Assembly: GCF_013393385.1 (NCBI RefSeq)
Contig: NZ_AP023239.1
Span: forward strand, 744,001 to 808,000
From: Paenibacillus sp. URB8-2
GTDB lineage: Bacteria; Bacillota; Bacilli; Paenibacillales; Paenibacillaceae
Reading direction: 5' to 3'
Length of the DNA: 64,000 nucleotides
The translations under genes and the position numbers were made by a program. Positions within the stretch are counted from its first letter, which is position 1, and each line of letters starts with the position of its first letter. Below are positions 54,105-62,453 of the stretch, piece by piece. The notes below the pieces were generated by a model that saw only the letters and a list, made by a program, of their open reading frames with translations, was not told the DNA's origin and ran no database searches.

Positions 54105-54120
54105 GTGGGACCGATCCCAC
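54105..54120. promoter_or_regulatory. LacI-type operator 1
   Basis: GTGGGACCGATCCCAC, a near-perfect palindrome centred on CG, as LacI-family sites are. It fits TGNNANCGNTNNCA exactly and shares TGGGANCGNTCYCA with operator 2 at 57435. A LacI-family gene lies within the operon. Confidence 0.7.
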
Positions 54121-54144
54121 GTTATTTCATAAGAGGGGAGGCGT

Positions 54145-54612
54145 ATGATGCTGCTGAACGTGAGCGGACAGCTTGCTCCTATTGATACCAAGCATCATAT
54201 CACACATAAATTTCGGTTGGACAAGCCTGCTGCAGCCATCCAAATTCGGTTCGCCTACGAGCCCAAGCTACTGGAGGACGACGGACAGGCCATGGATTTA
54301 ATTATGCAATCTATCGACTCCTATATTGCTCCTGAGTATCAGAGCCCGGTCCGGGAAGGCTGGAAACGATTTTTGCCGCTCAAAAATCTCCTCACCCTGT
54401 CGATAGACGATCCTAACAGATATAGAGGCGCGTGTCACAGACATGATGCGGAACAAAGTCTTTTTCTGTCGGAACAGGAAGCGTCCGAGGGACTATTATC
54501 CGGGAAATTGGCTTTAGGAGAGTGGAGCGTTACGATCAGCGTTCACTCCGTCGTAACGGAACATTGCTCTTATGAATTGTCAATTTGGACGGAGGAGGCG
54601 GATACGGCATGA
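54145..54612 (+). CDS. Unknown protein at head of the PHP/GDPD/ABC operon
   Basis: 155 residues if the first ATG is used. GAGGGGAGG stands 4 bases before the first ATG (54145) and 7 before the second (54148). The sequence is strand-rich and opens LLNVSGQLAPIDTKHHITHK; later parts are FAYEPKLLEDDGQAMDLIMQ and LGEWSVTISVHSVVTEHCSY. It resembles a beta-sandwich domain that often accompanies CehA/McbA-type PHP proteins, but I cannot name a family. No signal peptide. It overlaps the PHP gene by 4 bases (ATGA), so the two are translationally coupled and may act as one unit, the first perhaps a substrate-binding subunit. Confidence 0.6.
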   Translation: MMLLNVSGQLAPIDTKHHITHKFRLDKPAAAIQIRFAYEPKLLEDDGQAMDLIMQSIDSYIAPEYQSPVREGWKRFLPLKNLLTLSIDDPNRYRGACHRHDAEQSLFLSEQEASEGLLSGKLALGEWSVTISVHSVVTEHCSYELSIWTEEADTA

Positions 54613-55631
54613 GATGGCTGGCTTCCGAACTTCATACACATACCTTTCACAGCGACGGCAGACAGTCACTGCTGGAACTGGCTTCAGGTGCGGCGAAGCT
54701 GGGCTTCGACTGCATCGCGCTTACCGATCATAATACGATGTCGGGGCTTGGAGACAGTGAGCTAATCGAGCGGGAAACGGGTGTCGTCATCATACCGGGC
54801 ATGGAGTGGACGACCTTCTACGGGCATATGGTAACGATCGGCCTGCAGGATTTTGTGGATTGGCGCAAGACGGGACAGTCTGAGATTCACGAAGGAATCT
54901 CCATGGTTCACGGGCGGGGCGGGCTTGCCGGAATGGCGCATCCTTTTCGGATCGGAAATCCCGTCTGTACCGGTTGTTACTGGGAATATGAAATCAAAGA
55001 TTGGAACGACCTTGATTACATCGAAGTGTGGTCGGGAACGTTCGCATCCGTCAAGCCCGAGAATCGGCGGGCCTTCGCTTTGTGGACGGACCGGCTGAAC
55101 GCCGGTATCCGCATCGCGGCTACATCCGGACGGGATTGGCATGAGCAGGCGAACACGGACGAGCCTCTCTCGGTCACTTATCTGGGACTGGACGACGAGC
55201 CGGGAACTATCTCGCAAAAAGCGGTTCGGGCGCTTGCGCAGGGGAGGGTCTCCGTAACGGTCGGTCCGCTGGTAACGATGGAGGCAGAGGCCGCCGGCGC
55301 ATTGTACAGTATCGGCGAATCGGTCTCCGTGCGAAATGAAGCAGACACAATTCAACTCCATGTGAAGCTCGACTTTTCCGTTAGACAGACGTTGTGGGAA
55401 CTGCCGAAACAGGATTTTACGTTAAAGATTATGGGTAATTCGGGCACACTCGCACAATGCGCCGCAGGTTCCGCCGATCAGCTCTACGGGTTCAGCATCC
55501 CGGCATACGGGTTGATCTGGGCGAGGGCCGAATTATGGGGAGTTGTAAAAGGCGTGCGAACGATGATCGCTTTTACGAATGCCACTTACTTTGATACCGT
55601 CTCTACTAAAATAAGGGGGATGAAAGAGTGA
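54609..55631 (+). CDS. CehA/McbA-like PHP-domain metallohydrolase
   Basis: A 340-residue cytosolic hydrolase. The PHP motifs are LHTHTFHSDG (H9, H11, D16), ALTDHN and GMAHPFRI, with a late SGRDWHE, giving the ligands of a multinuclear metal centre. PHP enzymes of this type hydrolyse phosphoester or related bonds; in CehA/McbA they cleave carbamates. The genes on either side favour a phosphoester substrate. A C-terminal ~100-residue segment is strand-rich. The ATG at 54609 overlaps the previous stop, and the 3' end overlaps the GDPD gene by 4 bases. Confidence 0.8.
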   Translation: MRWLASELHTHTFHSDGRQSLLELASGAAKLGFDCIALTDHNTMSGLGDSELIERETGVVIIPGMEWTTFYGHMVTIGLQDFVDWRKTGQSEIHEGISMVHGRGGLAGMAHPFRIGNPVCTGCYWEYEIKDWNDLDYIEVWSGTFASVKPENRRAFALWTDRLNAGIRIAATSGRDWHEQANTDEPLSVTYLGLDDEPGTISQKAVRALAQGRVSVTVGPLVTMEAEAAGALYSIGESVSVRNEADTIQLHVKLDFSVRQTLWELPKQDFTLKIMGNSGTLAQCAAGSADQLYGFSIPAYGLIWARAELWGVVKGVRTMIAFTNATYFDTVSTKIRGMKE

Positions 55632-56359
55632 ATGCTGTTCCGCTTGTTACCGCGCATACCGGATGTATGAATACGCCCGATAACTCTCTGCTCTCGATCG
55701 AGACGGGTCTTGCGAACGGTGCGGATATTATTGAAGACGACATTCGGGTTACCCGCGACGGCGTACCCGTGCTCAGCCATGATAATGAGGTCCGCCTCGC
55801 AGACGGCTCCGTGGGCAGCCTTTCCCAAATGACGATTTCGGAGCTGAATGAGAGTCTTTCCATTCCGATCGTCAAGCTGGAGCAGGCTTTGCATTTAGTG
55901 CGGTGTGCTGGGAAGACGATGAATCTCGACCTGAAGACGGATGACTGCCTTGAGCCGGTATCCGAGTTGGTTGAACAGCTTGGCATGATCGACCGCACAT
56001 TTCTATCGGGCTGCGAGGTAGACAGGGCCCGCAAAGCCAAGCATAGCAACTCTAGATTGCGTAAGCTTCTCAATGTGGATGCCAGCCTGTTTCTTGCCCG
56101 GAGCTATACTGAAGCCGTCTTGCAGACACTTCAAGATGCTGAAAGCGCCGGCTGCTTCGGAATTAACGTACCTTACCGTTTAGTCGAATCGTATCTGCTG
56201 GAGAAGGCGGCTGAATACGGGTTTCAAATCTACATCTGGACTGTTGATCGGGAAGAAGAGATGAGACTATACGCGGCTATGGGCGTGCATTCCATCACTA
56301 CAAGAAACGTTGCCGACCTCGTTCGGGTTAAAAAGGAAATGTTGGCGGAAGGAAGTTGA
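55628..56359 (+). CDS. Glycerophosphodiester phosphodiesterase-like protein
   Basis: A 243-residue TIM-barrel enzyme with no signal peptide. GDPD residues present are H10, E36-D38 (IIEDDI) and H51-D52 (VLSHDN), plus the NLDLKTDD strand. The usual HR of the first motif is HT (T11), and PENT is PDNS. This departs from the canonical GDPD signature and may change specificity, although the core acid and histidines remain. It should release a sn-glycerol-phosphate or similar from a phosphodiester. GTG start at 55628 overlapping the PHP gene. It overlaps or abuts the LacI gene. Confidence 0.75.
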   Translation: MNAVPLVTAHTGCMNTPDNSLLSIETGLANGADIIEDDIRVTRDGVPVLSHDNEVRLADGSVGSLSQMTISELNESLSIPIVKLEQALHLVRCAGKTMNLDLKTDDCLEPVSELVEQLGMIDRTFLSGCEVDRARKAKHSNSRLRKLLNVDASLFLARSYTEAVLQTLQDAESAGCFGINVPYRLVESYLLEKAAEYGFQIYIWTVDREEEMRLYAAMGVHSITTRNVADLVRVKKEMLAEGS

Positions 56360-56361
56360 CC

Positions 56362-57363
56362 GTGGGCTATAACATAAAAGAAATCGCCTCATTGGCAGGC
56401 GTCTCCAAATCGACTGTTTCCAGAGTGATCTCGGGCTCCGGCTACGCCAGTCAGGAAGCGCGCGAACGCGTAATGAAGGTGATCGAAACACTGCAATACA
56501 AGCCGAGCGCGGTGGCGAGAGCGATGGTGGCGCAGCGGACACACAATATCGGCGTTATCATTTTCCGGGAGCAGCAGCCAATCGTGTCCCATCCGCTGTA
56601 TGGAAAAATTGTTGACGCCATCCTGATGGCCGCCGGGGCAAAGGGCTATTCCGTGTTCCTTACCACCGACCATGAGATGTCGCTGCGTTCCACCGATTTT
56701 ATGCTGGAAAAGCGGGTTGACGGATTAATTCTGATCAGCCGGCTTCGTCAAAATGTCATTGATTACGTAAAATCATTCAATATTCCGTATTTGATGGTCA
56801 ACGGATCGACAGACGATCCGGAAGTCGTTCAGATCGTAAGCAAGGACGAAGAAGGAGGGGAGCGCGCCGCCTCTTACCTGTACCAGCTCGGGCATCGTCA
56901 AATCTTTGTAATCGCTGGTCCGCAGGAGCACAGAAGCCATAATTTACGACTGAAAGGTTTTTGCAGCAGTATGGAAAGATTGGGCAACAGCGGAGGACTG
57001 ACTGTAGTTTCCTCGCCGGAATCCAGCTTTGATATGGGCTACCGGGTCATGCTGGAGCATTGGGACTTTTTCATGCAGGGAGCCTATACGTCTTTATTCG
57101 CAACGAACGACATGCTAGCTCTCGGAGCAATGAAGCTTCTGGCCGAGAGATCGGTCCGGGTACCTGAGCAAATCGCAGTTATGGGCTTTGACGATATCGA
57201 TTTCGCTTCCATGTATTCTCCTTCGCTGACAACCGTGAGGGTGGAGAAGGATAAAATGGGACAGGATGCGATATGGATGCTGGACCGGTTGATCCGGAAG
57301 GAAGACGGCCTCCCCAAGCTGAACGAGTATGCGAGCGAACTGATTATTCGACAGTCTACCTAA
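56362..57363 (+). CDS. LacI-family transcriptional regulator
   Basis: A 333-residue repressor. The N-terminal helix-turn-helix is YNIKEIASLAGVSKSTVSRV followed by a hinge (YKPSAVARAM), and then a type-I periplasmic-binding-like effector domain (~60-333). The GTG at 56362 has GGAAGG 9 bases upstream; a TTG at 56356 is an alternative. Located inside the cluster, it is the likely ligand-responsive regulator. The two operators at 54105 and 57435 are its best candidate sites. The effector is probably the imported compound or its product. Confidence 0.88.
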   Translation: MGYNIKEIASLAGVSKSTVSRVISGSGYASQEARERVMKVIETLQYKPSAVARAMVAQRTHNIGVIIFREQQPIVSHPLYGKIVDAILMAAGAKGYSVFLTTDHEMSLRSTDFMLEKRVDGLILISRLRQNVIDYVKSFNIPYLMVNGSTDDPEVVQIVSKDEEGGERAASYLYQLGHRQIFVIAGPQEHRSHNLRLKGFCSSMERLGNSGGLTVVSSPESSFDMGYRVMLEHWDFFMQGAYTSLFATNDMLALGAMKLLAERSVRVPEQIAVMGFDDIDFASMYSPSLTTVRVEKDKMGQDAIWMLDRLIRKEDGLPKLNEYASELIIRQST

Positions 57364-57375
57364 TGCCGCGTATGC

Positions 57376-57404
57376 TTTACCGTTTATGTAATTTCGGATA
57401 ATAC
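57376..57404 (+). promoter_or_regulatory. Candidate internal promoter before the ABC genes
   Basis: -35 TTTACC (57376-57381), 17-base spacer, -10 TAATAC (57399-57404). It precedes operator 2, allowing separate expression of the importer genes. Confidence 0.35.
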
Positions 57405-57434
57405 TGCTCAAATACTAAGAAATTAAAATAAACA

Positions 57435-57448
57435 TGGGAACGGTCTCA
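57435..57448. promoter_or_regulatory. LacI-type operator 2
   Basis: TGGGAACGGTCTCA fits TGNNANCGNTNNCA and matches operator 1 in the pattern TGGGANCGNTCYCA. It lies 40 bases before the first permease gene. Confidence 0.65.
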
Positions 57449-57487
57449 CATTGAGACATTCATCCCGGAAAGGAGCTTTACAGGGAC

Positions 57488-58312
57488 ATGAGTTGGTACT
57501 TTAGAGCCATCGGTTTTCGGAAAATATTCGAGTTCCTGCTGCTTGTCGCTTTTGTCGTCTTCTTCGTCGGCCCGCTCTTGAATCTCGCCGTGCTTGCTTT
57601 CAGCAGCAAGTGGAATTATCCCGACCTGCTGCCGCGGCAGTGGTCCTTGCAGTGGTGGCGCTTCGTACTCCAGGAGGAGGATATCGCCAAATCCATCGGA
57701 CTTTCGTTTCTGATCGCCGCGTTAGTTACGGCATTGTCCATCGTCATTTGCATCCCGGCCGCTTATGCCTTTGCCCGAATCCGATTCCCGCTGAGCCGCT
57801 TCTTTCTGTTTTCCTTTCTGCTAACGCACGCTTTTCCAAAAATGGGGCTGTATGTCTCGATTGCCGTCCTTTTTTATAAACTGGGGCTAATGAATACGCT
57901 GCTCGGCGTAGTCCTGGTTCATATGATTAACGTTCTGATGTTTATGACCTGGATTCCGACGGCAGCCTTCCGAAATGTTCACACCGCCCAGGAAGAATCG
58001 GCGAGGGATGTGGGGGCAACGCCGTTCCGCGTATTCCGCAGTATTACGCTGCCGATGGCGATGCCGGGTATTCTGGTCGCTTCCATCTTCACTTTTCTGA
58101 ACTCTTTGGACGAAGCCCAGGGCACTTTCCTGGTCGGTATTCCCGATTTCAAGACGATGCCGATCGTCATGTACTCGATAATCGCCGATTTTCCCAGCAG
58201 CGCCGGCGCCGTATTCTCAATCATTCTTACCGCTCCGACCATTATTCTGCTGTTAGCCGCCCAGCGTTTTGTCAGCGCGGATATTATGGCCAGCGGTTTC
58301 CAAGTTAAATAA
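57488..58312 (+). CDS. ABC transporter permease, importer subunit A
   Basis: A 274-residue inner-membrane subunit with six hydrophobic segments. The EAA loop that docks the ATPase is EESARDVGATPFRVFRSITL, near residue 175. The Fe3+/polyamine/organophosphate-type (CUT1-like or PotB/PhnU-like) family is indicated. An AAAGGAG site precedes the ATG at 57488. It starts a second sub-operon (permease, ATPase, binding protein, permease) after operator 2. The order, with one permease before the ATPase and one after the binding protein, is unusual. Confidence 0.88.
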   Translation: MSWYFRAIGFRKIFEFLLLVAFVVFFVGPLLNLAVLAFSSKWNYPDLLPRQWSLQWWRFVLQEEDIAKSIGLSFLIAALVTALSIVICIPAAYAFARIRFPLSRFFLFSFLLTHAFPKMGLYVSIAVLFYKLGLMNTLLGVVLVHMINVLMFMTWIPTAAFRNVHTAQEESARDVGATPFRVFRSITLPMAMPGILVASIFTFLNSLDEAQGTFLVGIPDFKTMPIVMYSIIADFPSSAGAVFSIILTAPTIILLLAAQRFVSADIMASGFQVK

Positions 58313-58361
58313 CAGTCCCGGGACAATAACCGGATTAATATCCGGATCACGGAGGAATTAC

Positions 58362-59399
58362 ATGAGTACACAGCTTTCGATTCGCAATTTGACCAAACGT
58401 TACAAGACGGGTGAGGGCGTAACCGATATTTCGCTCGACGTTAAAAAAGGTGAATTGGTCACCCTGTTAGGCCCTTCCGGCTGTGGCAAAACAACAGTGC
58501 TGAGAAGCATCGGCGGCTTTCTTGAGCCCGATTCGGGCGAAATTATGATTGCAAGCCGGAATGTGGTCAAGCTCCCCCCGGAGAAACGGCCAACCTCGAT
58601 GGTCTTTCAGGGATACAATCTGTGGCCGCATATGTCCATCTACGAAAATCTCGCATTCGGGCTCAAAATTCGCAAGACGCCCAAAGCGGAAATCAAGAGC
58701 GCCGTTGAGGATGCGCTTCGGCTTGTGCGGCTGCCCGGCGTGGAGAAGAAGTTCCCCAGCCAGCTTTCGGGCGGACAGCAGCAGCGAATCGCCGTCGCCA
58801 GATCCTTACTGCTGAAGCCCGAGGTATTGCTGCTGGACGAGCCTTTCTCTGCGCTGGATGCCAAGCTTCGTCATGAGATGAGGGAAGAGCTGCGCGAGAT
58901 TCAGACGGAGACCGGCCTGACGATGGTATTCGTCACTCATGACCAGAAGGAAGCCCTGTCTCTATCCGACCGGATCGTCGTGATGAATCAGGGGAATATC
59001 GAGCAGATCGCGGCGCCTCAGGATATATACGATTCGCCGGATACGCTGTTTGTCGCTCAGTTTATCGGCAAAATGAACTTTTTGGAGGGGGTGGTGGAAG
59101 AGGACAAGCTGCGAATAGGAGGTTTGGTCTTTCCGAATACGAAACGTCTTGCGGGGTCAATCGTCATCGCCGTCAGGCCGGAAGATGTCATGATAGGTCT
59201 GGATTCCGGAGACGGAGACGGCTTGAATGGAACAATCAAACAAATGATGGTGCTCGGCCATTATGCCGAGGTGTCGGTTGAACTTGACGGGCACGGCACC
59301 ATTCGGGCGTTTCAGCCGAGAGATAAGGTGAAGGAACTTTCGATGGGTCAACATGTGACCGTCGCTTTTGCCAAAGTGATCGCATATCCGAACAAGTAA
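58362..59399 (+). CDS. ABC transporter ATP-binding protein
   Basis: A 345-residue ATPase. Walker A is GPSGCGKTT, the signature is LSGGQQQRIAVAR, Walker B is VLLLDEPFSALD, and a C-terminal TOBE-like domain (~240-345) follows. This is the MalK/PotA/FbpC-type subunit of importers. Start at the ATG at 58362 with GGAGG upstream; the open frame back to 58269 is inside the permease gene. It powers the importer encoded by its neighbours. Confidence 0.93.
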   Translation: MSTQLSIRNLTKRYKTGEGVTDISLDVKKGELVTLLGPSGCGKTTVLRSIGGFLEPDSGEIMIASRNVVKLPPEKRPTSMVFQGYNLWPHMSIYENLAFGLKIRKTPKAEIKSAVEDALRLVRLPGVEKKFPSQLSGGQQQRIAVARSLLLKPEVLLLDEPFSALDAKLRHEMREELREIQTETGLTMVFVTHDQKEALSLSDRIVVMNQGNIEQIAAPQDIYDSPDTLFVAQFIGKMNFLEGVVEEDKLRIGGLVFPNTKRLAGSIVIAVRPEDVMIGLDSGDGDGLNGTIKQMMVLGHYAEVSVELDGHGTIRAFQPRDKVKELSMGQHVTVAFAKVIAYPNK

Positions 59400-59424
59400 G
59401 GACAAACAAGGGAGGAAATTTTAC

Positions 59425-60609
59425 ATGTTTCGTATGAAAAAACGTTTCACTATGCTGTCGGCGCTGGCATTGTCGTTCGCGGTTCTGGCAGGCTGCGGCA
59501 GTGCGGCGAATAACAATTCAGCGAGCTCCGCCGCAAATTCCAATTCCACAGCAGCAAGCAATTCCGCCTCTTCCGCACCGGTAGAAATTCAATTTTATTT
59601 TACAGGTTCCCAGAACGTAAAAACCCTGTGGGATGAACTCACGCCCATGTTCGAGGAAAAAAATCCGGACGTTAAGGTGAAGCTCGTGTACATTCCCTCC
59701 GGTACCGGCGCCCAACCGACCTATGACCGTATTTTGGCCGCCAAGCAAGCAGGCAAGGGATCGGGCGATATTGACCTCTATGAAGACGGTCTGCCTTTCG
59801 TCACCAGAGGCCAGGATGATGATCTCTGGGATACACTGAGCACAAGCTCCGTTCCAAATCTCGCAAAAGTAAACTCAAAAACGATGGAAGATGTTGCGAA
59901 CCTAGCGGTGCCTTACCGCTCATCAGCCGTCGTACTTGCTTATAACAGTGAGAAGGTGACTGCGCCTCCGACCACGCTGGACGAGGTATTTGACTGGATT
60001 AAGAAGAATCCCGAGCGCTTTGCTTATAACGACCCTTCCACCGGGGGCTCCGGCAGTTCCTTCGTAACGACGACCCTTTATAAAGATCTGCCTGAAGATG
60101 CGATTCATAGCGACGATCCGGCCATTGAGAAGGATTGGGCCAAAGGCTTTACGACGCTGAAGGAACTCGGCCCTTACCTGTACGGAAAAGGCATTTACCC
60201 GAAAAAGAATCAAGGCACGCTTGATCTGCTGACGAGCGGAGAGGTGGACATGATCCCCGCCTGGTCCGACATGGTGCTTGAACAGCTGGATAAAGGCCAA
60301 CTGCCGACAACGACCAAAATGCAGCAAATTACACCGGGCTTCAATGGCGGACCGACCTATCTGATGGTGCCGAAGCTGTCCGAGAAGAAAGAAGCGGTCT
60401 ATAAATTCCTGGACTTTGTTCTGTCGCCCGAGGCGCAGGCTGTCATGGTGAAGACGATGCACGGCTTCCCGGGAATCGAGCTGACGAGCATGCCGCAGGA
60501 TATTCAGGATTCTTTTAAAGGCGTTTCGGAAGGCTTCCGTAATTTCAACGTCGGCGAGCTCAGTAAAGAGATCAACAAACGCTGGCAGAGCGACGTGGCA
60601 GCCCAATGA
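59425..60609 (+). CDS. ABC transporter substrate-binding lipoprotein
   Basis: A 394-residue lipoprotein with signal peptide and lipobox LAGC (cysteine ~24), then an Asn/Ser-rich linker. The mature part, from VEIQFYFTGSQNV, is a type-II periplasmic binding protein of the Fe3+/polyamine/2-aminoethylphosphonate group (LPFVTRGQDDDLWDTLS, PYRSSAVVLAYNSEK). It should capture the imported solute outside the membrane. GGGAGGAAAT precedes the ATG at 59425. The family has many possible ligands, and the neighbouring GDPD and PHP genes favour an organophosphate. Confidence 0.9.
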   Translation: MFRMKKRFTMLSALALSFAVLAGCGSAANNNSASSAANSNSTAASNSASSAPVEIQFYFTGSQNVKTLWDELTPMFEEKNPDVKVKLVYIPSGTGAQPTYDRILAAKQAGKGSGDIDLYEDGLPFVTRGQDDDLWDTLSTSSVPNLAKVNSKTMEDVANLAVPYRSSAVVLAYNSEKVTAPPTTLDEVFDWIKKNPERFAYNDPSTGGSGSSFVTTTLYKDLPEDAIHSDDPAIEKDWAKGFTTLKELGPYLYGKGIYPKKNQGTLDLLTSGEVDMIPAWSDMVLEQLDKGQLPTTTKMQQITPGFNGGPTYLMVPKLSEKKEAVYKFLDFVLSPEAQAVMVKTMHGFPGIELTSMPQDIQDSFKGVSEGFRNFNVGELSKEINKRWQSDVAAQ

Positions 60610-61445
60610 GGAAAGAAGTGAAAATGGGGATATTCGGACTTTGTCTGGTTATCCCCTCCTTTCTCTTGCTGTCGGTGATCGTAGTTATTCCGATTATATT
60701 ATCTTTCATAGAAAGCCTTCGGGATGAATCCGGCGGTTATGGCCTCAGCCGTTATGTGTATTTGTTTACCGACGCGGGGATGCGGGCAAATATCGTGTTT
60801 ACCCTTCAGGTGACGATTGTTTCCTGTGTGATTGTGCTGGCGGTCAGCTACGCATTGGCGGTATACATGCGCTTCAGTACCGGCAGGCTGGTTGATTTAA
60901 TCCGCAAAACCTATATGATTCCGATATTTATTCCCGGGGTTATCGCAACCTACGGCTTGATCAACCTTCTGGGGAACCACGGCTGGCTGTCCCGATGGTT
61001 GCTGTTGTTCGGAGGAACGCTTCCGCGCATTATTTTTGATCAGAAGGGCATTATCATTGCGAATCTCTGGTTCAATATCCCGTTTACGGCAATGCTGCTC
61101 AGTTCGGCGCTGGCGGGAATCCCGAATGCGGTCATAGAGAGCGCCAAAGATATCGGGGCGGGCCGGTTGCGTATCTTTTTCCGGATCATACTTCCGTTAT
61201 CGTACAAAACGTTTCTCGTTGCGGTCACCTTCGTATTCATGGGTGTCATCGGTTCGTTTACCGCTCCGTTCCTGGTCGGTCCGAATGCTCCCCAAATGCT
61301 CGGCGTTTCGATGGAGCAGGTATTCAGCGTCTTCCAGGAGCGCGAACAGGCTGCGGCGATTTCATTCTTCACGTTCCTGCTGTGCTCGCTGCTAGGTTAC
61401 TTCTATATCCGTTCTATGGTTAAAGAAGAGACGGTCAGGCCATGA
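60606..61445 (+). CDS. ABC transporter permease, importer subunit B
   Basis: A 279-residue membrane protein with about six helices. The EAA loop is IESAKDIGAGRLRIFFRIIL, near residue 180. The start overlaps the binding-protein gene by 4 bases (ATGA). It pairs with the permease at 57488 to form the importer pore. It overlaps the next gene by 4 bases, so translation is coupled to the unknown 305-aa protein. Confidence 0.9.
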   Translation: MRKEVKMGIFGLCLVIPSFLLLSVIVVIPIILSFIESLRDESGGYGLSRYVYLFTDAGMRANIVFTLQVTIVSCVIVLAVSYALAVYMRFSTGRLVDLIRKTYMIPIFIPGVIATYGLINLLGNHGWLSRWLLLFGGTLPRIIFDQKGIIIANLWFNIPFTAMLLSSALAGIPNAVIESAKDIGAGRLRIFFRIILPLSYKTFLVAVTFVFMGVIGSFTAPFLVGPNAPQMLGVSMEQVFSVFQEREQAAAISFFTFLLCSLLGYFYIRSMVKEETVRP

Positions 61446-62359
61446 TTGAAATCTATACGCATGAATGGAAGTCGGTCAGCGCGAAATTGGCCGGGGCGAT
61501 GCGGGATGGAAAAGTTACCGTCCAGGAAACATGCGCCACTATCATTCCCGTGCTAGATCTGATGCGCAGCGTATTTCCGGATGACGCCGAAATCCCGGCA
61601 AGGCAGGGAGAATACTATCATCTCGACGGGCAGCTCCGCCGGGCGGGACAAGCCTATCGGAGGGCGCTGGAGCTTGAACCCCTCCTTATGCTTACGGAAC
61701 GGGAAGCCGCCGCGATCCGCCGCCATTGCCCGCTGCTGCTCACAACCGAGGCGGAATGCTTTCCCCTGAAGGATATCGCAGCCGTCCATCATCCCGCGAA
61801 GCCGCTCATTGGTTATCATCTGTTCTGGGAGGATGATTTCGACTTTCCGGATGATTATGAGCCTTGCGATCACGAAGAGATATGGGTGGAGTACGATCCT
61901 GCCGAGGAGACGGTCACCCAGGTTATGACGTTCTTCCACAGCTCGGTAATCTCCTCGGAGGAGGCTGTACAGGAAGCCAGGGAGCATGGGGAACGGCCGA
62001 TTATCCGAATCGAGTGGGGGAAACACGGGTCGCTGCTCAAAGGTTGGGAAACAATCGACATTCCAATGAAGAACATGACCATGCAGGATTGGATGCGGCA
62101 AACGTATGAGCATGTGAAGGCGGGCGGGCGCCTGCCGGACCATCCGCTGAAGCGTTTTTGGCCGCGGGGGTACGAAGGCTCCTACGAGTCTTATATTGAA
62201 TTCCCGGTTCCGGTCGATCCGCTGCTTTATTTGGATCGCAAGCCGCTTATGTTCAAGTCGCTCCATGCGAATGCGGTTTTGTTTACACAGGCCATCCCCT
62301 ATAATTTTCACCCGAAAATGGAATGGCCGGACCGGTTCGCCCGGGCATTACTGGATTAG
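61442..62359 (+). CDS. Unknown protein at the end of the PHP/GDPD/ABC operon
   Basis: A 305-residue soluble protein without signal peptide. Residues ~50-85 resemble one or two TPR-like helices (QGEYYHLDGQLRRAGQAYRR), and the rest is aromatic-rich with acidic WEDDFDFPDDYEPCDHEEI and HPLKRFWPRGYEGSYESYIE. I do not recognise a family. The start overlaps the permease stop by 4 bases (ATGA), so it belongs to the operon. A metabolic or accessory role is possible; it might be an enzyme, given its conserved-looking His and Asp-rich central block. A terminator follows at 62380. Confidence 0.7.
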   Translation: MIEIYTHEWKSVSAKLAGAMRDGKVTVQETCATIIPVLDLMRSVFPDDAEIPARQGEYYHLDGQLRRAGQAYRRALELEPLLMLTEREAAAIRRHCPLLLTTEAECFPLKDIAAVHHPAKPLIGYHLFWEDDFDFPDDYEPCDHEEIWVEYDPAEETVTQVMTFFHSSVISSEEAVQEAREHGERPIIRIEWGKHGSLLKGWETIDIPMKNMTMQDWMRQTYEHVKAGGRLPDHPLKRFWPRGYEGSYESYIEFPVPVDPLLYLDRKPLMFKSLHANAVLFTQAIPYNFHPKMEWPDRFARALLD

Positions 62360-62379
62360 GGAACACCGGATTTGCACTT

Positions 62380-62453
62380 AAACAGGCACTGCCGTGCCGC
62401 CCGCAGATGATGAAATCATGCATCGCGGGAGGATGACGGCGGTGCCTGTTTAT
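62380..62453 (+). terminator. Terminator of the PHP/GDPD/ABC operon
   Basis: A large hairpin, AAACAGGCACTGCCGT / ACGGCGGTGCCTGTTT, with an inner GCCCGC / GCGGG element, followed by ATT. Confidence 0.8.

Follow-up and report, generated by a model that had tools for sequence, protein, structure and literature searches.

Does a single LacI-family regulator govern a nine-gene cluster of Paenibacillus sp. URB8-2, and what compound does this cluster consume? The cluster lies at 54145-62359 of a 64,000-nt stretch of NZ_AP023239.1 (hereafter the window), for which an initial annotation had proposed that two matching operators tie the genes into one regulon for the import and hydrolysis of an organophosphate or phosphodiester. 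We followed up this proposal in the whole genome (5.58 Mb scanned) and in related loci (L numbers). The comparisons indicate that one LacI regulon very probably covers the cluster. We further assign a probability of roughly 60% to the reading that a phosphodiester is imported and then acted on by the glycerophosphodiester phosphodiesterase (GDPD)-like enzyme and the PHP hydrolase, in that order.

The open reading frame (ORF) list agreed with the annotation in nine genes, all on the + strand, and each family named in it (PHP, GDPD, LacI, permeases, ATPase, binding protein) was confirmed by both Pfam and NCBIfam, while genes 1 and 9 matched nothing in either collection. The candidate operators and the genes, including those of the ATP-binding cassette (ABC) importer, are as follows (aa, amino acids).

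54106-54119: candidate operator 1, TGGGACCGATCCCA, ahead of gene 1; perfect palindrome, exact pattern match
54145..54612, + strand: gene 1, 155 aa; detached N-terminal beta-sandwich domain of a CehA/McbA-type hydrolase
54609..55631 (ATG at 54609), + strand: PHP hydrolase of the CehA/McbA family, 340 aa; NF038032, PF02811
55628..56359, + strand: GDPD-like phosphodiesterase, 243 aa; PF03009 88.8 bits, AHTG motif
56356..57363, + strand: LacI-family regulator, 335 aa; PF00356 67.9 bits, recognition helix SKSTVSRV
57435-57448: candidate operator 2, TGGGAACGGTCTCA, ahead of the importer genes; exact pattern match, one half-site mismatch
57488..58312, + strand: ABC permease 1 (PhnV/PotC-like), 274 aa; PF00528
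58362..59399, + strand: ABC ATPase (FbpC/PotA/UgpC type), 345 aa; PF00005 and TOBE_2
59425..60609, + strand: substrate-binding lipoprotein, 394 aa; SBP_bac_8
60606..61445, + strand: ABC permease 2 (PotB/ModB-like), 279 aa; PF00528 (BPD_transp_1)
61442..62359, + strand: gene 9, optional accessory protein, 305 aa; relatives inside such clusters

Genes overlap at five junctions. The ATGA overlaps described previously were found at three of them (54609, 60606 and 61442), but the other two read GTGA (55628) and TTGA (56356).

Both 14-bp sites, at 54106 and 57435, matched the pattern TGGGANCGNTCYCA exactly, as annotated, and at zero mismatches the pattern occurred only in these two places of the genome. 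The LacI protein scored above the cut-offs for PF00356 (67.9 bits) and PF13377 (105 bits), and its predicted sites have the form expected for the family, a CG-centred palindrome near the regulator's own operon. Its SKSTVSR helix was unique in the genome: among 30 LacI-type helix-turn-helix (HTH) matches, in which 21 distinct recognition helices were read, the cluster LacI alone carried it, and two others read SKSTVSQ. Relaxed patterns were not enriched, since 11 places with up to two mismatches were found in the window versus a chance mean of 9.9, and up to one mismatch gave 7 forward and 12 reverse places in the whole genome versus 6 and 5 for the control, no clear excess. A wider regulon in this genome was considered and rejected, because 11 of the 12 other one-mismatch places fall within ORFs (three of these ORFs, at 80-131 aa, are short and perhaps not real genes) and the single intergenic one was assigned elsewhere. 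This intergenic site, TTGGGAACGTTACCAA at C1:2239489 (L099:3990), adjoins another LacI gene (HTH at 2238463, helix SKTTVSRV) ahead of a lipoprotein gene, and probably is that other LacI's own site in a separate local regulon. As for the candidate promoters annotated before the two sites, a sigma-70 scan gave nothing upstream of 54106, and the second was retained only as a weak one, with a single 9-of-12 match at 57348-57376.

Conservation of the site near orthologous clusters, the check suggested with the regulon, was then examined in two samples. In the first, contigs were scanned with the PHP protein, and the nine proteins were placed by tblastn in the best 80 of 102 confirmed loci. Two gene orders were found, gene 1-PHP-GDPD-LacI-importer and LacI-importer-gene 1-PHP-GDPD. 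The LacI-ortholog set was defined as the 53 loci with LacI of at least 59% identity (30 and 23 by gene order), which come from related species and are not 53 independent events. In 52 of the 53, a site with at most one mismatch (exact in 49) was located within 150 bp upstream of the first operon gene, and it shifted with whichever gene is first, in both the 30 and the 23 loci. The remaining locus, L022, has two sites before permease 1, one of them exact. Two sites stand ahead of the first gene in 14 loci, and exact sites were also present in L043 and L044, which lie just below the 59% line. No further exact copy was found outside the operon and permease-1 leaders in the 1,070,807 bp of the 53 loci. 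The second site before permease 1 is a minority feature, being shared by three of the 30 relatives with the window's gene order (L001, L006 and L050); a site at the operator-2 position was also observed in L022 and L181.

The second sample was chosen by LacI, which matched at E ≤1e-80 in 70 of 295 family genomes, the own genome counted. Sixty of the 70 were taken, of which 29 repeated known loci (identical 500-bp stretch) and 31 were new. All 25 new loci with LacI of at least 57% carried the site (24 exact, one with one mismatch). Specifically, 21 have an exact site within 200 bp upstream of gene 1 or LacI, L153 and L175 have one ~800 bp upstream of LacI, just before a GDPD gene, L181 has one ahead of permease 1, and the site of L199 has the mismatch. 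The six new loci below 57% were L200 and L201-L205. No site was seen in the first scan of L200 (LacI 56%), but in a longer stretch of the same genome (L256), two sites with one mismatch each lie between LacI and permease 1. In L201-L205 (LacI 51-53%), the one-mismatch form TGGGAACCTTCCCA lies 25-43 bp upstream of LacI.

We also observed, in the LacI lineage at 51-57%, an exact site inside the regulator's own coding sequence, at codons for W-E-R-S-H (L055:5904, L057:5900, L058:5907 and L064:7729; at +708 of LacI in L201, L202 and L205). Variation of this 14-mer in the seven cases is confined to the operator's second N position, and L055, L057, L058 and L064 share their codons at the site, whereas among their 238 invariant residues (M and W excluded) codon sharing extends to only 47. 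A one-mismatch version is found there in L203 and L204, and none in L061 and L200.

Regulator and operator change together. In eight loci (L068, L073-L077, L079 and L080), the gene-1/PHP pair is accompanied by another LacI (27-29%), whose helix reads SVTSVSRV in place of SKST[VA]SRV or SRSTASRV. Ahead of the cluster or of the gene-1/PHP pair, all eight loci carry TGGTANCGNTACCA with at most one mismatch, and TGGGANCGNTCYCA within one mismatch was found in none of them. Conversely, exact TGGTANCGNTACCA was absent from the leaders of the 53 LacI-ortholog loci, four of which (L006, L032, L033 and L034) contain hybrids one mismatch from it. The single LacI regulon of the initial annotation is thus strongly supported by the conservation, by the matched change of helix and operator, and by two exact sites unique in the genome. 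In seven more loci, genes of a single cluster stand beside the gene-1/PHP pair or the importer, the tested member (L062) being of the GntR-UTRA type. Note that a gene from one further cluster is present in all eight SVTSVSRV loci; the member tested, from L068, is a MATE-type transporter.

Turning to the enzymes, genes 1 and 2, listed separately in the initial annotation, are one split CehA/McbA-type enzyme with gene 1 as its detached N-terminal domain, because the fused form exists elsewhere: gene 1 is joined to the PHP domain in L107-L110 and L118 of distant Firmicutes. The structure model of gene 1 (predicted local distance difference test, pLDDT, 95.9) has PPC/GOLD-like proteins as its nearest folds. 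The PHP protein matched NF038032 over the whole model (residues 2-329; 280.4 bits versus a cut-off of 80), as in the CehA/McbA family, although the N-terminal domain is a separate, overlapping gene here. H9, H11, D16, H41, E66, H111, D176 and H178, which we take to be the PHP metal ligands, were conserved at 97% or more in 80 sequences. The PHP hydrolase is likely a cytoplasmic phosphomonoesterase.

The GDPD-like enzyme scored 88.8 bits with PF03009 (cut-off 23.6), and its H10, E36, D38, H51 and D101, presumably the catalytic-type His residues and metal ligands, were invariant in 59 of 59 sequences. The canonical GDPD motif is HRG. This motif was not found in the cluster enzyme, which reads AHTG, and 57 of 59 homologues read AH[TSCA]G (two were not read by the regular expression); a different GDPD of this genome (L250) does have HRG. 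When the N-termini were judged by eye, gene 1, PHP and GDPD showed no apparent signal peptide. Hydrolysis therefore probably takes place in the cytoplasm, and the importer would bring in the diester intact.

The best hint at the chemistry is a phosphatase gene in the company of related LacI genes. In six genomes with LacI at 51-56% (L254, L256, L259, L260, L261 and L262), the operon holds an inositol-monophosphatase-family gene (PF00459, 240 bits in L256 and 217 bits in L254; the other four by tblastn, 64-66% identity). Gene 1 and PHP are absent from the fetched stretches of these six loci, and the 80 PHP loci contain no relative of the phosphatase gene. The importer type of the window is retained in L256, together with a GDPD, and a divergent GDPD gene is present in L261 and L262. 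We infer that the phosphatase gene does the job of the PHP pair in these six operons.

From these data the following scheme may be drawn, in which the repression, the reaction order, the substrate class and the inducer are all predicted. When substrate is lacking, LacI would sit on the operator ahead of the operon, here also before the importer genes, and block transcription. The binding lipoprotein and an importer of two permeases and one ATPase would take the intact diester, most likely a phosphodiester of a sugar or polyol, into the cell. The cytoplasmic GDPD-like enzyme would split it into an alcohol and a phosphomonoester. The phosphate of the latter would be removed by the gene-1/PHP pair acting as a split metallohydrolase. 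The imported compound or an intermediate would presumably lift the repression. Import and hydrolysis of an organophosphate or phosphodiester, as annotated, are indirectly supported by the GDPD in the operon, by the phosphatase in six PHP-less genomes, and by a phosphoesterase fusion of gene 9 relatives in two.

Several observations weigh against this scheme. In the GDPD, the residue following the first His is not Arg, and an Asp takes the place of the consensus Glu; a classical glycerophosphodiester may therefore not be its substrate. In addition, the enzyme is missing from several gene-1/PHP clusters (L054, L056, L059, L062 and L063 among others) and from three of the six phosphatase loci (L254, L259 and L260), and the importer is of another kind in five of these six (all except L256). 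L253 lacks both PHP and the inositol-monophosphatase-family gene despite having GDPD, indicating that the replacement is not universal. The name-giving CehA/McbA enzymes hydrolyse carbamate, not phosphate. Finally, the fold of the binding protein fits polyamine, iron, sugar-phosphate and sugar ligands alike: its model (pLDDT 81.9) resembled PotD, FbpA/FutA, AfuA and sugar binders with no clear winner, and the structure matches include uridylyl-phospho-guanosine- and AfuA-type binders, although the fold alone proves nothing.

The importer was compared with the best 25 NCBIfam models per protein. The best-scoring models were of the 2-aminoethylphosphonate, polyamine, molybdate and Ugp types, and all those listed remained below their cut-offs, in agreement with the annotation that this is neither the Ugp nor a known phosphonate system. 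Permease 1 scored best with PhnV (78.8 bits versus a cut-off of 358.7) and the ATPase with PhnT2 (377.8 versus 457.7). The PhnSTUV and PhnT2/PhnU2 systems thus supply the best models for these two proteins, but the scores fell short of a 2-aminoethylphosphonate importer (also PhnT 298.6 versus 499.15 and PhnU2 89.3 versus 593.25), and Pfam and NCBIfam revealed no phosphonate-degrading family among the nine genes. Ugp models likewise stayed below their cut-offs (UgpC 318.6 versus 432; UgpA 28 versus 335). CUT1-like importers of the L055 type also accompany the gene-1/PHP pair; in L055, permeases that score best with the UgpA and UgpE models, though below cut-off, lie beside gene 1, PHP and GDPD.

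UgpBAEC-UgpQ combines an ABC importer with a cytoplasmic GDPD-family enzyme, as does the cluster. A divergent glycerophosphodiester system (for glycerophosphocholine, -ethanolamine or -inositol), analogous to Ugp/UgpQ and serving phosphate or carbon supply, is the alternative that survives best, and the GDPD family, the L055 permeases and the inositol-monophosphatase-family gene of PHP-less operons all speak for it. We nevertheless consider it unlikely, because the importer lies below the Ugp cut-offs, the canonical GDPD Arg is absent (AHTG for HRG), and no glycerol-3-phosphate enzyme was detected among the nine genes by Pfam or NCBIfam; the PHP/gene-1 pair and LacI are further additions relative to Ugp. 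Somewhat less probable still is a real regulon for a non-phosphate substrate, in which PHP would be an ester or carbamate hydrolase, the GDPD-like protein would have lost phosphodiesterase chemistry, and another soil or plant compound would be used. NF038032 is indeed named after carbamate hydrolases, the usual Arg is gone in 57 of 59 GDPD sequences, and GDPD is often absent beside gene 1/PHP. However, the five GDPD residues named above are invariant in all 59, a phosphatase-family gene of a different fold occupies PHP-less operons, and gene 9 relatives are fused to a phosphoesterase. It is highly improbable that the sites are CcpA/cre-like catabolite-repression sites rather than targets of the cluster LacI, for although cre sites, to which a LacI-family protein binds, are 14-bp palindromes centred on CG as well, only two exact matches exist in the genome, both in the cluster, the site follows the cluster LacI and gives way to another operator with another LacI, and the half-site is TGGGA versus TGNAA in cre.

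Returning to the import of a sugar or polyol phosphodiester, we tentatively suggest, at slightly less than even odds, that the cluster exemplifies an unrecognised, opine-like catabolic module in Paenibacillaceae and distant Firmicutes, built around a CehA/McbA-type phosphomonoesterase core that is split in Paenibacillaceae and fused elsewhere. In such a module, an inositol-monophosphatase-family enzyme could take the place of this core while the regulator, the operator type and, in half of the cases seen, GDPD stay. It would be served by several importers (FbpC-type, CUT1-type and perhaps a phosphotransferase system, PTS), and its regulators would comprise one GntR and two LacI lineages, each of the latter with its own operator.

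As described in PMC4526662, the agrocinopine operon of Agrobacterium encodes the AccA-AccBCDE importer, the phosphodiesterase AccF, the putative phosphatase AccG and the repressor AccR, whose effector is the released phosphomonoester. Compared by description (PMC4526662), both systems would share intact import of a sugar phosphodiester, a cytoplasmic phosphodiesterase, a putative phosphatase and a dedicated repressor, and we propose that the cluster may resemble agrocinopine catabolism in function. It differs in having a LacI-family regulator, an FbpC/PotA-type importer and a predicted, usually split PHP phosphatase. In the xanthosan system of Xanthomonas, a sugar phosphodiester is likewise imported and hydrolysed as a nutrient, but XanT is a TonB-dependent transporter, XanP a 2H-phosphoesterase and the GDPD-type AvrBs2 the synthetase (PMC12807533). 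The cluster sites have the same operator form as those of the actinobacterial regulators CelR and CebR2, a parallel absent from the initial annotation, namely TGGGA(A/T)CG(A/T)TCCCA for the CelR-like operator of A. cellulolyticus (PMC3377646) and the deduced consensus TGGGAACGTTCCCA for CebR2 (PMC9953190). Those regulators, however, control cello-oligosaccharide or cellulose use, and the comparison concerns operators, not proteins. A literature search of titles and abstract starts returned no description of this cluster; the main text of PMC4052901 does not mention phosphodiester, glycerophosph or Paenibacillus, and PMC7793946, as far as its passages show, concerns glpQ and not this cluster. 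Regulator class, operator class and enzyme families are thus already known, and the gene combination and the split hydrolase were not found described in these searches.

The cluster is common in the family, yet its parts carry generic names alone. With the operator pattern at hand, the regulon can be tested directly, and the phosphatase gene of PHP-less operons predicts that CehA/McbA-type hydrolases act on phosphate esters. If the ligand is a defined sugar or inositol phosphodiester, the module would give soil Paenibacillus a plant- or microbe-derived source of phosphorus and carbon.

Gene 9 is optional, its profile being matched in 10 of 290 family genomes. Aligned over 228 columns, its C-terminal two thirds were 33% identical to the C-terminal region of a PF00149 protein from L257. 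This gene 9-like domain is fused to a calcineurin-like phosphoesterase in L257:6798-8525 and L258:6176-7885, and a CUT1-like importer, two PHP-type proteins and a DeoR-type regulator (families tested in L257) are encoded near the fusion. A conserved protein of ~440 aa or longer, which by eye resembled gene 9, was found in ten loci (L054, L056, L062, L063, L065-L067, L069, L070 and L072), directly upstream of gene 1 in the eight that were mapped; the one tested (L054) had no Pfam or NCBIfam match. A relationship between gene 9 and this L062-type protein was rejected by profile comparison (probability 0.2%).

The fused or paired gene-1/PHP genes lie near GH38 genes in L107-L110, L112 and L118, and the fused form adjoins ABC importer genes too. 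The three GH38 proteins tested (L107, L109 and L112) show similarity to mannosylglycerate hydrolase, with scores short of the curated cut-off; relatives were found by tblastn in L118, L108 and L110, and weakly (24%) in L117. In L112, gene 1 and PHP are separate, and a PTS permease gene lies between them and the GH38 gene. These neighbours in distant Firmicutes point to sugar-like substrates, not necessarily the same one, and an alpha-mannoside substrate was not extended to the window, given that no GH38 relative occurs among the ORFs of the 80 loci. Lastly, in a P. sacheonensis record (L060:8007-8700), the binding-protein match covers about a tenth and the ATPase match ~0.6 of the query, and the regulator, operators and enzymes are still present.

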